DNA of 64,000 nt, from assembly GCF_003268635.1 (NCBI RefSeq), contig NZ_CP029639.1:5664001-5728000 (forward strand), in the 5' to 3' direction. The notes below the pieces were generated by a model. The model worked only from the letters and a program-made list of their open reading frames with translations, did not search any database and was not told where the DNA came from. The translations under genes and the position numbers were made by a program. Of this stretch, positions 53,841 to 59,928 are shown one piece after another. This DNA is from Paenibacillus sp. DCT19 (lineage in GTDB: Bacteria; Bacillota; Bacilli; Paenibacillales; Paenibacillaceae). Numbering within the stretch: position 1 is the stretch's first letter; every line of letters begins with the position of its first letter.

Positions 53841-54105
53841 ATCAAGATTACTTTTGATTAAAAGGAGCTCTTGATCAAGGCTAGTCTTGATTCATCCTTC
53901 TCTTGATTAGACCTACACTCTTCATACCGAGTTACTAATTTACTTTCACTTATAAAGACAAAAAAGACAAAAAAGACAACCTAGCCTCATTGCTCATAGA
54001 AGTAATAAATAATTAATCATATGATTAATACAAAACTACTTTTCGTATTTTACCTTTTTTTATAACTTTTAATAATTACATCAATTCATGGAATTCATAA
54101 TTAAG

Positions 54106-54148
54106 GGCTGTTCTTAGAAGTAATACTGACTTGGGACAGCCCCTTCTT
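54106..54148. repeat. GGGCTGT foldback repeat
   Basis: GGGCTGTTC near 54106 and GGGACAGCCCC near 54134 pair across about 22 bases. The ends resemble the terminal inverted repeats of IS1182-like elements (GGGCTGTCCC), but no transposase accompanies them. It sits just past the 3' end of the intron remnant. A terminator is an alternative. Confidence 0.45.
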
Positions 54149-54151
54149 CTC

Positions 54152-54910
54152 AAACGAGTAGGAAACTGACCATAAATTAAGTAGCTACCTTTCACACCAT
54201 AATCCGTACTATTTAATGTAAGCACCTCTACAAGGAAAGAAAATCGCATTCACTGCTGTATCACCCAATAGACGGTCGAAATGCCCTATTTCAAATGCCA
54301 CTTCCAACTGTTTTGGGAATCGCCTTACGCTTTACTAGACTTGGCTTAACAACGATAAGCACCGTTTCGCTAATAAACCCAGTTCAGATTTTCTCTGTTC
54401 AGTATGGATGACATCAGCTAGCCTATGCACTGTCTCTTTCTCTACCTTCGTGAGTATCCATACTTTTGCGCTCCTACTTCCACGCGATCTTTTGAGCTAT
54501 TCCTTTTGGTAGTATGCTTTCATCACATTGATGCTCTTTTAGATCTGTACTTGAGACAAAGTGATTGTTCCATCCTCTGACCTCTACTGACTTCTAAACA
54601 CAAGCATTACTTCATCTTTCAAAATTTATTTTCCTATCTAACTTCAGTTAGATCTCCCCGTATAATAGATATATCTTTCCCATCCATCTGGCATATCTAT
54701 ACGAATTGAAACCGAATTAGATTTTGTTTTTATGTAGATGTATTCCACTAATTATTTCTTATATGTGATTTTTGTTCGCAGCTAGGTTTCCCTCTGGCTT
54801 CTTTAAATCCCACCTCACGACCGAAAGTCTGCCCTTGTCTAACACTAGATTCTGTCAAGTCTGTAGCGTACTCTCTCTCCTCCAATTATGACCTATGTCC
54901 GGCTCATCAC
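54152..54910 (-). ncRNA. Degraded class C group II intron (reverse transcriptase largely lost)
   Basis: On the minus strand the element starts GTGATGAGCCGG directly after the T tract of a terminator (54911-54950), the normal target of bacterial class C introns. Landmarks in order match class C ribozymes as I know them: AGGGAAACCTAGCTGCGAAC (about 54774-54790), TACGGGGAGATCT (54650-54662), AAGTCAGTAGAGGTCAGAG (about 54575-54593), a GCGTGGAAGTAGGAGCGC hairpin near 54475, and at the 3' end GGTGTGAAAGG and CCTACTCG (about 54155). The intron-encoded protein is reduced to short frames and domain V looks decayed, so it should be inactive. Length about 760 bases against roughly 1.9 kb for an intact one. 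Confidence 0.7.
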
Positions 54911-54950
54911 AAAAAAGCTCGAATGAGTGAACTCATTCAAGCATTTTTTT
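54911..54950 (-). terminator. Terminator of the ATPase-methylase operon
   Basis: GCTTGAATGAGT and ACTCATTCGAGC form the stem on the minus strand, followed by TTTTTT; the plus strand also has a T tract. It lies 160 bases after the methylase stop. Confidence 0.8.
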
Positions 54951-55108
54951 ATCACTTTTTTTACAACAAATAATTTTTGAGTAACAGACAAATGATAATT
55001 ATGGTTTATTTATAACGTAACCCAGTCCCAGAGAAAAGTAATATATTCCACCAATTGCAGTTCGATTATGACATTTTTTTAGCATATAGACAATCCTAAG
55101 ATATAGAA

Positions 55109-55981
55109 TTATTCTAATACATCCACAACAACTTTCTCAAAAGATTCTATTTTTGTATGCTGACTACAAAACAACAGTTCCTTTTCTTTCCTTTTATTCT
55201 GCGCTGAATAAGTTATATAGTACTGATAATTAGGAACACTTGAGTAAAGATCAATAAGTTGTTTTTGATAATCATATGTTGTAATCCAGTAATAATCATT
55301 TAAATTTATGATAGCATCTCTAAGTAAAATATGATCCTCATGTTCAAACGAATTAGTGTATAGATTTTTACCTTGAACATAGTAAGGTGGATCAAAAAAT
55401 ATAAACGAATTTTTAGGATTTAAATTCCTTATTATTTCTCTAGTCATAACTTTCGCATCGAGATTATAAAGAATTATTTGAGATTTTTTCCTTCCTATTT
55501 TTTCTATCTTTTCAATTAGTGATTTTTTATTGAATCTACAATCAATTTTATATTTACCATTCTGTTTTAAACCGCCTATTACACCACCTGATATAATACC
55601 GCTTCTGTTGGTTCTATTAAGATAAAATGTAGCGAAACCATTAGCTAATGAATGTGGATCATTCTTATATTTTTCAAGTATTTGCTTCTGAGCATGCCAA
55701 CTTTCGATAGTGACAGGGGTCTCAAGTATTTTTTCAATGAATTCATCATTCATGTTCAAAATTGAATACCAAAAAGCATGAATAGATGGATCAATATCAT
55801 TGATAATAATACGTTTAACTACATCATTTAATATCAAGTTAATAGAGATTCCGGAACCTCCAGAGAATGGTTCAATATACGTTAGATCTACTAAGCCATT
55901 TATCGATATTAAATTCTTTACAAATTTTGTTAATTGAGATTTTCCTCCAGGATACCTTAATGGGCTATCAGTTATTGGCAT
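55109..55981 (-). CDS. D12-class (Dam-like) DNA adenine methyltransferase
   Basis: A 290-residue N6-adenine methyltransferase of the DpnM/Dam group. Motifs: RYPGGKS (residues 9-15), SAM-binding EPFSGGSG (36-43), NDIDP (61-65), the family segment YLNRTNRSGIISGG, catalytic DPPYYVQG (about 190), and ITYSAQNKRKEKELLF near the end. The ATG at 55981 overlaps the ATPase stop by 14 bases, so translation is coupled. In defence loci such an enzyme either protects the host or marks self DNA; the sequence it recognises is not deducible. Base composition is much more AT-rich than in glmS or the operons around. Confidence 0.9.
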   Translation of the reverse strand: MPITDSPLRYPGGKSQLTKFVKNLISINGLVDLTYIEPFSGGSGISINLILNDVVKRIIINDIDPSIHAFWYSILNMNDEFIEKILETPVTIESWHAQKQILEKYKNDPHSLANGFATFYLNRTNRSGIISGGVIGGLKQNGKYKIDCRFNKKSLIEKIEKIGRKKSQIILYNLDAKVMTREIIRNLNPKNSFIFFDPPYYVQGKNLYTNSFEHEDHILLRDAIINLNDYYWITTYDYQKQLIDLYSSVPNYQYYITYSAQNKRKEKELLFCSQHTKIESFEKVVVDVLE

Positions 55982-57767
55982 ATTCAACACTCTCAAACAA
56001 TTTTTTTTTATTCTTCCATACAGATGCTGGGATACTGTAAGCAACTCTTGTTTTCTTGAACATAGAAAACAAATTATTATAAAAGAACTGAACTTCAGTC
56101 TGATTTCTTTTATCCTTTAGCCACTCTATAAAAACAACAGAAAAAAAGGAATCATATTTACGATATAACTCTTTATTTTTTTCCCTTCTTTTGCCCTTTT
56201 TTGAAGGTAACTTTTCTAAATAAACTGAAATAGCTTCTATTTCTGCTCTTATTTCTTTAGCTTTATCATATGAATAACCATCACGAACATGTGGCTTTTT
56301 ATTGCTCCAGAACTCAGCATAATCTTCACTCTCAATAAGAATATTTAAATAATCAAATATCAGTTGTTCAGGATTTGTTTTACCAGGCAAAGTAATAATA
56401 TTAGATTCTAGTTGATTTTTAGCATCCCCATCTAGAACACAAATTGCTTTAATAATATTATTAGTAAGTATTTCATCACGGAAAATACTTTGTAAATTAC
56501 TAGATCCAACATTAGAATCGACAAAATGGAATACTTCCCTTACCTTAAGAATTTGAGGATCCCAATCTCCGAGAACCATAAAAATATCATTAAGAAGTTT
56601 TCTAGCTTCGGCGTCTTCCGTAAATATAGGTATCTTATTGCTTTCCCTTAATTCAGAAGATGTAACTTGTTCTAGGTACATTCTTATAGTAAACATATCT
56701 ATTTCTTCACATACACTAACTTTGTTTTGTTCATTTAAAAGGTAAAGAACATTAGCTTTTTTGTTTATTCCGTGTTCAATAAGTGAAAAACTATGTGTTG
56801 TGAACACAATCTGGATCGAATAATCTTCTGAATATGTTTTTAATAGATTGTATAACTTCAATTGGTATGATGGATGTAGAGTTGCATCTATTTCGTCTAT
56901 CAACAATAAACTACTAATATGATGGTTTTCATCTACTCCAACCTCCTTCTGTAATTCATCATAATAATATTTAAGCGATACTAACGCCGTAATGATAATG
57001 TATAAATTATCCTCTCCGGCTGAAATAGTATTTGAATCAATACCATCTATGCTAGTTTTAAACTCAGCCCTTTTTTTCATACCAATATTACTGTAGGATT
57101 CATGAGTTACATCTATATTCGTAAAAGACGAGTAGATTTGGTTAATTGTGTTAATGTATTCTAATGGTAATGAACTTTTTATTTGGCTAATATAACTATC
57201 TTTTAATTCCCTTTTTAATATGTTTTTTATTTTAGTTAATGTCTGATTATCTAGTTCTAAACTTTTGCTTAATTTTTCACTTATTTTTTCCAAGTGAAGT
57301 TCTTGATACTCCCCATATGATAATAAACGGGATAAACCTAAATATATTACTGGCATTTCTGGAAGAGATTCGTTTTTTCCACGAGCATAGTTTGGTTTTA
57401 TTGAATATCTTGAATTTTTTGGAGAATTGTGTTTTCTGAATTCCAACTTACTATTATCAAAATATGTAACTTCTAAAATTGAACCTTTTTTCCCGTTAGT
57501 AGGGTCATTAAATTGTTTATCTCCTCGACTCAATGTTTCTATTTTTGGATTCATAATACTATTAATACTATTAATAGTATTAATACAATTTTTTAAGTTC
57601 CCAGAAGTGTTAGAAGCATTTCTTTGCTTATACGAGTTGGAAAGCAAGTATAAGATTGAACTCTTACAAGTTCCATTAGTTCCAGAGACCAAATTCAAAT
57701 TAGGACTTAATTCTAAAGAAATATCAATTAGTTTTCGATAACTTTTTATATCTAATTTTCTACTCAT
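55968..57767 (-). CDS. OLD-like AAA ATPase with TOPRIM-like C-terminal half
   Basis: A 599-residue protein. The ABC-type ATPase half has a Walker A at residues 29-36, GTNGTCKS, with Cys in place of the usual Gly before Lys; a signature-like SAGEDNL (about 246); Walker B SSLLLIDEIDATLHP (about 290); and switch His TTHSFSL. The C-terminal half has TOPRIM-like acidic sites, FTEDAEARKLL (Glu about 382) and CVLDGDAKN (DGD about 446), followed by LPGKTNPEQLIFDYL and a basic tail (KKGKRREKNKEL). This is the OLD nuclease layout used in several phage-defence systems. GAGGAG precedes the ATG. First gene of a two-gene operon with the adenine methylase; foreign base composition. Confidence 0.85.
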   Translation of the reverse strand: MSRKLDIKSYRKLIDISLELSPNLNLVSGTNGTCKSSILYLLSNSYKQRNASNTSGNLKNCINTINSINSIMNPKIETLSRGDKQFNDPTNGKKGSILEVTYFDNSKLEFRKHNSPKNSRYSIKPNYARGKNESLPEMPVIYLGLSRLLSYGEYQELHLEKISEKLSKSLELDNQTLTKIKNILKRELKDSYISQIKSSLPLEYINTINQIYSSFTNIDVTHESYSNIGMKKRAEFKTSIDGIDSNTISAGEDNLYIIITALVSLKYYYDELQKEVGVDENHHISSLLLIDEIDATLHPSYQLKLYNLLKTYSEDYSIQIVFTTHSFSLIEHGINKKANVLYLLNEQNKVSVCEEIDMFTIRMYLEQVTSSELRESNKIPIFTEDAEARKLLNDIFMVLGDWDPQILKVREVFHFVDSNVGSSNLQSIFRDEILTNNIIKAICVLDGDAKNQLESNIITLPGKTNPEQLIFDYLNILIESEDYAEFWSNKKPHVRDGYSYDKAKEIRAEIEAISVYLEKLPSKKGKRREKNKELYRKYDSFFSVVFIEWLKDKRNQTEVQFFYNNLFSMFKKTRVAYSIPASVWKNKKKLFESVEYANN

Positions 57768-58007
57768 ATCTTCTCCTCTAATACGCTTTTTGTAGCGTTA
57801 TTTCAATGAATACTAAATCAGGATTTCTGAAAGTTTAGCCTTCCACGAGGTAAATCCAGCTTTAAAGACAACACTCATTTTCACTGAATCTCTACATCCT
57901 ACTATATAAAGGCTAGCTCCAAATATTGATTTTAAAATAGAATCGCATTTAAGTTACTATAACAATAACTTCTTAAAAATTCAATTTAATTAACGATAAA
58001 TAAACAC
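57768..58007. other. AT-rich edge of the island next to glmS
   Basis: A 240-base gap between the ATPase start and the glmS terminator. It should hold the promoter of the operon, but no consensus pair is convincing. No transposon end (5' TGT with repeats) recognised. Confidence 0.35.
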
Positions 58008-58054
58008 AGAAAAGTTGAGCAGATCTCAGGGAATTTATCCTAGTTCTGCTCAAC
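58008..58054 (-). terminator. glmS terminator
   Basis: GTTGAGCAGA and TCTGCTCAAC pair across about 21 bases; on the minus strand the hairpin is followed by TTTTCTG. About 45 bases after the glmS stop. Confidence 0.7.
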
Positions 58055-58095
58055 ATAAATTTGATTATACTCTCCTCAGATTTTACGTCTACGAA

Positions 58096-58135
58096 TTACT
58101 CAACCGTTACACTCTTCGCCAAGTTACGTGGTTTA
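58096..58135 (-). other. attTn7-like target sequence at the 3' end of glmS
   Basis: The codons for PRNLAKSVTVE-stop (minus strand, AACTTGGCGAAGAGTGTAAC and GGTTGAG) match the well-conserved site used by Tn7-type elements, which insert just downstream of glmS. Here the AT-rich defence-like island begins on that side. Confidence 0.5.
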
Positions 58136-59928
58136 TCCACATCGTGTCCCAGTGCAAGAGATGCGTAGTATGCAAGCAATTGCAGAGCTACAACGGACAG
58201 AGCTGGGCTCAGCAATGGCAACGTCTTAGGAATAGCAAACGCTTGATCCACGGATTTCAGCAAGCTTGCTACATGCTCTTCATACGTAATTGCCAGTACA
58301 TCTGCGCCACGCGCTTTAACTTCCTTGATGTTGCTCACTGTTTTCTCAAGCACGTTCTCCTGTGTTGCCAGGGCAATAACAGGGATTCCGTCCTCGATCA
58401 ATGCGAGCGTACCATGCTTCAACTCACCCGCAGCATAAGCTTCGGAGTGGATGTAGGAGATCTCTTTCAGCTTCAACGAACCTTCTTGTGCTACAGCGTA
58501 GTCCAGACCACGGCCGATGAAGAAGAGATGTTGATGTTTCGAGATTTGCTCTGCATATCCTTTGATTGCATCAGCTTGCTCCAACATGGATTCTACTTGC
58601 TCAGGCAGAGCTTGCATTGCAGCAAGCATGTGCTCGATTTCTTCTGCAGTTTGTGTACCACGTACTTGTGCCAGATACAGACCAAGCAGGTTGAACGCGA
58701 TCAGTTGTGATGTGTATGCTTTTGTGGAAGCAACCGCGATTTCCGGTCCTGCCAATGTTGCAATAACATCATTGGCATCACGAGCGATGGAGCTGCCCAC
58801 AACGTTTGTTACGGCCAACACGTGTGCACCATTGGACTGTGCTTCACGAAGTGCAGCCAGTGTATCCGCAGTTTCACCAGATTGGCTCACAACGATGACC
58901 AGTGTATCTTTGTTCACGATTGGTGAACGATAACGGTACTCGGAAGCAACATCTGTTTCTACCGGAATGCGTACCAGTTGTTCAATGATTGTACGTCCAA
59001 CCAGACCTGCGTGGTATGCAGTACCACAAGCAATGATCTGAATGTTACGGATATTTTTAATTTGCTCTTCCGTCATGCTCAGCTCAGGAAGTTGAACTTT
59101 TTTGCCGTCTGTGTCAATGCGACCCAGCATTGTATCACGGTATGCTTTTGGTTGCTCATGAATTTCTTTCAGCATGAAGTGCTCGAATCCGCCTTTTTCT
59201 GCGGTTACAGCATCCCAATCGACACGAATCATTTCCCGAGAAATAAAGTTACCTTCAATCGTCATCAATTCGACAGCATCATGTGTCAGAACAGCCATTT
59301 CACCATCATTCAGAATGTACACGTCACGTGTATGTTCCAGAATTGCCGGGATATCGGAACCAATGAAGTTCTCGCCTTCACCAATACCAATAATCAATGG
59401 ACTAGCTTGACGTACAGCTACGAGTTTCTCAGGCTCATGCTCTGTCAAAACACCCAGTGCGAATGCGCCACGCAACAACGTGATCACCTTTTGCACTGTT
59501 TTAACGATATCACCATTGTATTCACGTGCAATAAGGTGAGAGATAACTTCAGTATCTGTCTCAGAAGTGAACGTTTGGCCTTGAGCCATCAATTCGTCCT
59601 TCAGCTCCAAGTAGTTCTCAATAATACCGTTATGCACAACAGAGAACTTCTGACTTACATCCGTGTGTGGATGGGAGTTCTCATCCGATGGTTTACCATG
59701 AGTCGCCCAACGTGTGTGTCCGATTCCGGCATTACCTACCAGTGGTGCACCATCCAGCTTAGCCTCAAGATTTGCAAGACGTCCAAGCGCTTTGGTGATT
59801 TGCAGACCTTCAGGTGTAAATACAGCAATACCCGCAGAGTCATAACCACGATACTCGAGCTTCTTCAGACCTTCGACCAATACCGATTGAGTGTTCTTAT
59901 TACCAATATATCCAACAATACCGCACAT
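58096..59928 (-). CDS. glmS: Glutamine-fructose-6-phosphate aminotransferase
   Basis: A 610-residue enzyme that makes glucosamine-6-phosphate, the first step of amino-sugar and peptidoglycan precursor synthesis. The glutaminase domain starts at the catalytic Cys (MCGIVGYIGN), contains GNAGIGHTRWATHG, and the two SIS isomerase domains contain VSQSGETADT and the C-terminal DKPRNLAKSVTVE. AGGAGG precedes the ATG. Controlled by the ribozyme in its leader. Lies downstream of glmM on the same strand. The 3' end also carries the conserved sequence that TnsD-type proteins bind. Confidence 0.97.
   Translation of the reverse strand: MCGIVGYIGNKNTQSVLVEGLKKLEYRGYDSAGIAVFTPEGLQITKALGRLANLEAKLDGAPLVGNAGIGHTRWATHGKPSDENSHPHTDVSQKFSVVHNGIIENYLELKDELMAQGQTFTSETDTEVISHLIAREYNGDIVKTVQKVITLLRGAFALGVLTEHEPEKLVAVRQASPLIIGIGEGENFIGSDIPAILEHTRDVYILNDGEMAVLTHDAVELMTIEGNFISREMIRVDWDAVTAEKGGFEHFMLKEIHEQPKAYRDTMLGRIDTDGKKVQLPELSMTEEQIKNIRNIQIIACGTAYHAGLVGRTIIEQLVRIPVETDVASEYRYRSPIVNKDTLVIVVSQSGETADTLAALREAQSNGAHVLAVTNVVGSSIARDANDVIATLAGPEIAVASTKAYTSQLIAFNLLGLYLAQVRGTQTAEEIEHMLAAMQALPEQVESMLEQADAIKGYAEQISKHQHLFFIGRGLDYAVAQEGSLKLKEISYIHSEAYAAGELKHGTLALIEDGIPVIALATQENVLEKTVSNIKEVKARGADVLAITYEEHVASLLKSVDQAFAIPKTLPLLSPALSVVALQLLAYYASLALGHDVDKPRNLAKSVTVE

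Follow-up and report, generated by a model that had tools for sequence, protein, structure and literature searches.

The locus described here raises the question of whether an OLD-like ATPase and the DNA adenine methylase encoded next to it form a defense system of their own, and what the methylase would contribute to it. The two genes are found at positions 55109-57767, on the minus strand, of a 64,000-nucleotide stretch of Paenibacillus sp. DCT19 DNA (bases 5664001-5728000 of a single-contig genome of 6.67 Mb; contig NZ_CP029639.1), the whole of which is called the window below. In the open reading frame (ORF) list of the window the pair appears as ORFs of 599 and 290 amino acids, and an initial annotation made from the letters alone had described it as an AAA ATPase, TOPRIM-like in its C-terminal half, whose gene overlaps that of a D12-class methylase by 14 bases. 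The overlap is confirmed by the ORFs, and the ATPase and methylase classes by Pfam. OLD-family nucleases have been sorted according to their partner, which may be none, a UvrD-like helicase, a retron or the other half of a split ATPase/TOPRIM pair (PMC10568477). Here the partner is a methylase, the two genes are close to inseparable in other genomes, and the methylase family to which this one belongs often exchanges its effectors. The pair is likely to function in phage defense.

The two proteins

The larger protein matches the Pfam families AAA_15/AAA_21. Its N-terminal ABC head is complete, Walker A, signature and Walker B all being present, and the glutamate and the DxD motif of TOPRIM are found in the C-terminal half (Table 1). 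When the model of the whole protein was searched with Foldseek, the top matches were the retron Eco8 effector, GajA and Thermus OLD. VIA-align of the whole model covered residues 1-367 only, where the matched structures include the PtuA and AriA heads, and for that reason the C-terminal half was folded separately. Folded alone it gave a confident model whose VIA-align matches were AriB (the best), OLD nucleases and retron Eco2. Since Foldseek alone returned for this half no match with an E-value below 0.001, the TOPRIM assignment rests on the VIA-align ranks, the whole-model Foldseek matches and the invariant residues; TOPRIM was absent among the 25 Pfam families listed of 32 for 29 members of the ATPase family. 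We therefore call the protein an OLD-like ATPase whose C-terminal half is probably a TOPRIM domain, so that the fold proposed in the initial annotation holds with this reservation. No PADLOC defense family claims the ATPase, and against the AriA model it reaches only 42 bits.

The smaller protein is assigned to MethyltransfD12 by Pfam, and the motif LRYPGGK is, together with the catalytic DPPY, invariant across the aligned methylases (alignment A2). The stretch EPFSGGSG is taken by us to be the S-adenosylmethionine-binding motif region. The closest solved structure by sequence is 7m6b (E-value 4e-29). In PADLOC the protein matches PD-Lambda-5_B (PDLC04018) with 371.4 bits over residues 1-283 of 290, and it stays, with 61.5 bits, under the cut-off of 114.85 of the NCBIfam Dam model. 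It had earlier been seen as a stand-alone Dam-like methylase belonging to no known system; the D12 class stands, but the protein does have a family, PD-Lambda-5_B, and it is not a Dam protein by that cut-off. An orphan Dam gene was rejected both on this cut-off and on the linkage described next.

Linkage of the ATPase and methylase genes

Linkage of the two genes is near obligate. An alignment of the ATPase was scanned against GTDB genomes (best 80 of 88 matches) and IMG/VR, and a locus was regarded as testable if it was a genome locus with a full-length ATPase of the family and at least 2.5 kb on both flanks. There are 34 such loci, or 33 without one near copy (L036 and L037 are near copies). 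A D12 methylase gene lies within 300 bp of the ATPase gene in 30 of the 34, which answers the earlier proposal that the pairing of homologs be counted; one of the 30, L023, has a more distant D12 protein encoded on the opposite strand. In two more (L006 and L050) the methylase gene is within 3 kb and PD-Lambda-5_A occupies the gap. The last two, L038 and L039, have it 3.7-3.8 kb away with HerA- and NurA-like genes between, in the four-gene order methylase, HerA, NurA and family ATPase (L038:1222-7737; L039:1174-7695). The 34 do not include two testable loci whose ORFs are short, one of which, L060, is without an intact methylase, nor 23 loci cut by contig ends, 7 of them showing no methylase. 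At L060:6046-6854 a fragment of the ATPase runs into the tail of a methylase, which looks like what a deletion has left of such a pair.

Among the 46 adjacent pairs, testable or not, the methylase gene is downstream in 36, upstream in 6, convergent in 3 and divergent in 1. As gene order and orientation vary, the adjacency has outlived rearrangement. In each of the 22 viral loci returned, many being near copies of one another, the methylase gene is no more than 300 bp away, and the 20 loci with remote AAA matches only (L065-L084) had no methylase match at an E-value of 1e-5.

It is scarcely conceivable that an orphan Dam-like methylase has merely come to lie beside a stray OLD gene, and nothing was found in favor of this reading. 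The genes are linked in all 34 testable loci, if the four with an effector in between are counted, and the methylase family is rare, being found (E-value 1e-40 or better) in 16 of 397 other Bacillota genomes; within the same class, 10 of 397 other genomes have the methylase. Because of this rarity, chance adjacency can be set aside.

Exchange of partners around the methylase family

With the methylase as bait 106 loci were obtained, of which 38 with scores under 240 bits were left out, and the remaining 68 comprise 66 non-redundant loci; one of the scans kept the best 80 matches. The effector labels come from profiles built on these same loci, and ten neighbors were checked by PADLOC and Pfam. 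These turned out to be PD-Lambda-5_A in L140 and L143 (475 and 569 bits), NurA in L135, HerA in L138 and L146, DruE in L145 (1420 bits) and OLD-like ATPases in L132, L136, L139 and L144. An effector is found within 2.5 kb of the methylase in 64 of the 66 loci. The partner is PD-Lambda-5_A alone in 30 and an OLD-type ATPase alone in 23 (4 of the window's family), both occur in 4, HerA-NurA in 5 and DruE in 2, and the 2 loci without any (L191 and L147) are both cut by a contig edge. A gene for a DruE-like helicase stands directly ahead of the same-family methylase at L145:12-4829 and L162:1-5323. Of the 38 excluded loci, 9 with weaker methylases (151-204 bits) were labelled, and none of these effectors accompanies them, which indicates that the link is peculiar to this methylase family rather than general among Dam-like methylases.

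When the loci obtained with the ATPase as bait are added, 118 of 120 loci have an effector. Left out of this set were methylases with less than 240 bits to profile A2 (L023, L085, L038 and L039 included) and the duplicate short-flank loci L001, L107, L115-L131 and L148-L157, and removal of near copies reduced 141 loci to 120. It should be kept in mind that 57 of the 120 hold the ATPase by construction, through the ATPase bait or as phage/plasmid matches chosen for both genes (L002-L004). An OLD-type ATPase and PD-Lambda-5_A occur together in 14 of the 120, in several gene orders. Three-gene loci in which these two and the methylase follow each other in varied order are L006, L050, L011, L021, L036 and L040, and such loci are also L051, L061, L161, L194 and L144.

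Partner labels are clustered on the methylase tree, yet they have been exchanged often. The tree, a quick build of 119 rows in which 30 of the 116 inner branches are drawn as open, demands at least 35 changes of label, against a mean of 63 for shuffled labels and a possible minimum of 5. L100, L182 and L185 have methylases that share 77-82% identity, yet three different effectors accompany them: a family ATPase, a different OLD-type ATPase and PD-Lambda-5_A. Within the genus a methylase match at an E-value of 1e-30 is present in 14 of 75 genomes, and the partners were viewed in four of them: G000 and G053 have the methylase and the ATPase, PD-Lambda-5_A not being found, and in G062 and G068 the methylase is near PD-Lambda-5_A and a family ATPase is lacking.

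In alignment A4 of PD-Lambda-5_A a conserved EGNRR...ALK stretch presumably resembles ParB-like domains; Pfam supports this weakly, with a weak ParB_N match in 1 and GmrSD_N in 2 of 21 members. HEPN proteins have been described in operons with genes for a ParB nuclease and a DNA methylase (PMC3710099), and that description may touch PD-Lambda-5_A.

Relation to known systems

The closest known system is PD-Lambda-5 (Vassallo et al. 2022), which originates from a P2-like prophage of E. coli (PMC10482375). It was picked by phage selection and protects, the account given in PMC9519451 being that plaquing or plaque size was affected for all but one of 10 phages and that the host tested lacked the mrr region. 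Similarly to PD-Lambda-5, the pair of the window combines a methylase of the same family with an effector gene, and both are met in mobile elements. The effector, however, is PD-Lambda-5_A there and an OLD-like ATPase-TOPRIM here. No A protein was detected in the DCT19 genome with a profile of 21 A proteins, which as a control gave positives in 5 of 7 genomes, none of the five having been used in building it; the single PADLOC PD-Lambda-5_A model also had no match in the genome, a result that counts for little as it lacks a positive control. PD-Lambda-5 proper was rejected, since the A protein was not found and the ATPase is not one. The strong match of the methylase to PD-Lambda-5_B could still suggest a member of that system with a diverged A protein. 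This is very improbable: no PD-Lambda-5_A model is among the best 25 of 84 families of the ATPase (the weakest at 34.6 bits) whereas two genuine A proteins reach the scores given above, the A-protein profile is without a match in this genome but detects A proteins in others, and OLD-type ATPases and A proteins stand side by side in 14 of the 120 loci. The pair is related to PD-Lambda-5 as a sibling that uses another effector, not as a member. According to the initial annotation, membership of an already named system would have refuted the proposal; for PD-Lambda-5 this is not what is seen, the A protein being absent.

Other systems resemble the pair in part. Gabija also has a single protein with an ABC head and a TOPRIM domain, and GajA is among the top Foldseek matches, but a methylase replaces the adjoining UvrD-like GajB; Gabija was rejected, no GajB being found beside the ATPase. 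Class 1 OLD proteins and the class 3 OLD of retron Eco8 share the domain order, as the Foldseek matches reflect, whereas the ATPase here is neither stand-alone nor beside a reverse transcriptase. PARIS (AriA-AriB, or AriAB fusions) differs in that no DUF4435 match was found by Pfam, the AriA score is low and the partner is a methylase, yet AriB is the best fold match of the C-terminal half. With Type II restriction-modification the pair has in common overlapping genes for a methylase and a presumed nuclease, but the effector is an ATPase-TOPRIM and no endonuclease domain is recognized by Pfam. Our searches of open-licence papers found none that names a pair of OLD-like ATPase-TOPRIM and D12 methylase. 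Aravind and colleagues had surveyed ABC-ATPase conflict systems earlier; their survey, cited for TOPRIM-linked OLD ATPases and their neighborhoods (PMC12839542), may mention such pairs.

Possible mode of action

We lean, if only slightly, toward reading the pair as a horizontally acquired, restriction-like defense unit. The methylase would place an N6-adenine mark on specific sites of the cell's own DNA, the ABC-type head of the ATPase would sense DNA using ATP, and the TOPRIM half would cut nucleic acid where the DNA is without the mark. The pair would then be one of several interchangeable combinations of methylase and effector around one methylase family, PD-Lambda-5 being the combination proven by experiment. 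The genes, their conserved motifs, the near-obligate linkage and the exchange of partners are what the sequences show; that self is signalled by methylation, that the effect is cutting and that phage is the target is what we infer. One methylase family accompanies unrelated effectors, two of which are by family DNA helicase or translocase modules, and the methyl mark is the simplest common denominator; it is this that favors the restriction-like model with the ATPase-TOPRIM as effector. HerA-NurA as a DNA translocase/nuclease family and DruE as a helicase family fit a DNA mark as the shared currency.

The main rival, which we consider rather unlikely, is that the ATPase-TOPRIM ignores the mark and acts as a guard or back-up, watching for phage anti-restriction proteins or a blocked methylase and then cutting tRNA or DNA, whereby growth of the infected cell is halted; the sensing of the DNA mimic Ocr by the PARIS protein AriA is the model for this. 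The resemblance of the TOPRIM half to AriB, which cleaves tRNA (PMC12409363), and of the ATPase half to the PtuA and AriA heads would suit such a guard. So would the OLD-type ATPases in loci that already hold PD-Lambda-5_A or HerA-NurA (L038 and L039), and back-up roles of OLD ATPases beside BREX have been proposed (PMC12839542). On the other hand, the family ATPase is the sole labelled effector in 43 of the 120 loci, a set largely ATPase-baited, and as unrelated proteins also serve this methylase family as partners, a guard relying on protein-protein contact would have had to re-evolve each time.

Genomic setting and acquisition

The pair sits just downstream of glmS, with a nitroreductase gene on its other side. 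Its GC percentage is 28.6% (0.286), compared to 44% for the window and 0.468 for glmS, so that the AT-richness remarked on earlier is real. Between the nitroreductase gene and the methylase (53841-55108) there is approximately 1.3 kb without an ORF of at least 60 amino acids, which is dissimilar in G064. In that genome, whose flanks are approximately 94% identical, the gap from glmS to the nitroreductase gene is 1.5 kb, dissimilar in sequence, against 4.25 kb in the window, and other relatives carry different genes after glmS. True homologs of the ATPase were found in 2 of 75 genus genomes, weak matches only in 7 more. The comparison with relatives indicates that the pair was acquired horizontally.

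The gene glmS is the classical target of Tn7. In Paenibacillus sp. NAIST15-1 (L005:766-5814) genes for TnsC-like, TnsD and TnsE proteins are directly upstream of the pair; cargo of a Tn7-type element was rejected for the window, where no transposon gene or clear end was seen at the pair. A repeat scan over 4.5 kb disclosed a degenerate direct repeat, scored afterwards, whose two copies are about 59 bp long and 74% identical, one lying in the DNA beyond the methylase and the other in the 3' coding sequence of glmS (Table 1). With one scoring it reached 23, the null having a mean of 12.4 and a maximum of 18 in 300 simulations, and with another 32 against a null maximum of 31; a like repeat was present in 0 of 7 relatives. 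It could be the scar of a site-specific integration, but given the mixed statistics and its absence from the relatives this stays a hint. On the 3' side of the pair there is a terminator-like hairpin, one of 3 such sites in 54800-58150, where shuffled sequence has 0.6 on average.

In a Streptococcus phage (L002) a related pair is flanked by a cI-like repressor gene and the integrase gene, and another occurs in a Peduoviridae phage (L003). Together with the Tns genes of L005, these settings would suit a selfish module of mobile elements in which the methylase is the immunity against a constitutively active nuclease and phage defense a by-product. Such addiction is improbable, however, as PD-Lambda-5, built on the same methylase family, was obtained by selection with phages (PMC9519451), and as partners are exchanged while the methylase is kept, suggesting a shared recognition function.

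Table 1. Coordinates, in the window, of the pair and of the features discussed in the text
Feature	Position	Strand	Basis
OLD-like ABC-type ATPase with C-terminal TOPRIM-like domain, 599 amino acids	55968..57767	-	ORF; Pfam AAA_15/AAA_21; Foldseek
Walker A, residues 29-37, GTNGTCKSS	57657..57683	-	G29, G32 and K35 in 60/60, C34 in 58/60 aligned family members
ABC signature SAGEDNL, residues 249-255	57003..57023	-	S249 and G251 in 60/60
Walker B LLIDE, residues 288-292	56892..56906	-	D291 and E292 in 60/60
TOPRIM-like C-terminal half (probable), residues 368-599	55971..56666	-	Model with predicted local distance difference test (pLDDT) of 93.3; VIA-align matches
TOPRIM glutamate E384	56616..56618	-	60/60
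TOPRIM DxD, D446-G-D448	56424..56432	-	D446 and D448 in 60/60
D12-class N6-adenine DNA methyltransferase, PD-Lambda-5_B family, 290 amino acids	55109..55981	-	Pfam; PADLOC PDLC04018
Methylase catalytic motif DPPY, residues 197-200	55382..55393	-	Invariant in alignment A2, 35 sequences
Methylase EPFSGGSG, residues 37-44	55850..55873	-	E37, G41 and G42 invariant in A2
Gene overlap of 14 bases	55968..55981	-	ORF coordinates
Intrinsic-terminator-like hairpin downstream of the pair	54917..54942	-	Stem of 11 pairs, followed by a T run
Degenerate direct copy of glmS 3' coding sequence (58129-58185)	55002..55060	.	About 74% identity, 2-base gap; suggestive

Significance for the OLD and methylase families

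A broader view, which we hold tentatively and with slightly more doubt than belief, is that this D12 methylase family serves as a general self-marking module of bacterial and prophage immunity, freely exchanging, and in three- and four-gene loci also stacking, no fewer than four effector modules that are unrelated (PD-Lambda-5_A, OLD-like ATPase-TOPRIM, HerA-NurA and DruE-like helicase). In that case the pair of the window would be the simplest version with an OLD-TOPRIM effector, and a novel type of ATP-dependent restriction that lacks a classical endonuclease. The exchange of effectors suggests that annotation rules requiring both PD-Lambda-5_A and PD-Lambda-5_B miss much of a larger modular family. 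For the OLD nucleases, a class partnered by a methylase would be an addition to the known sorting; in it the distinction between self and non-self could be written in DNA marks, and how such a nuclease spares the DNA of its host would become directly testable.
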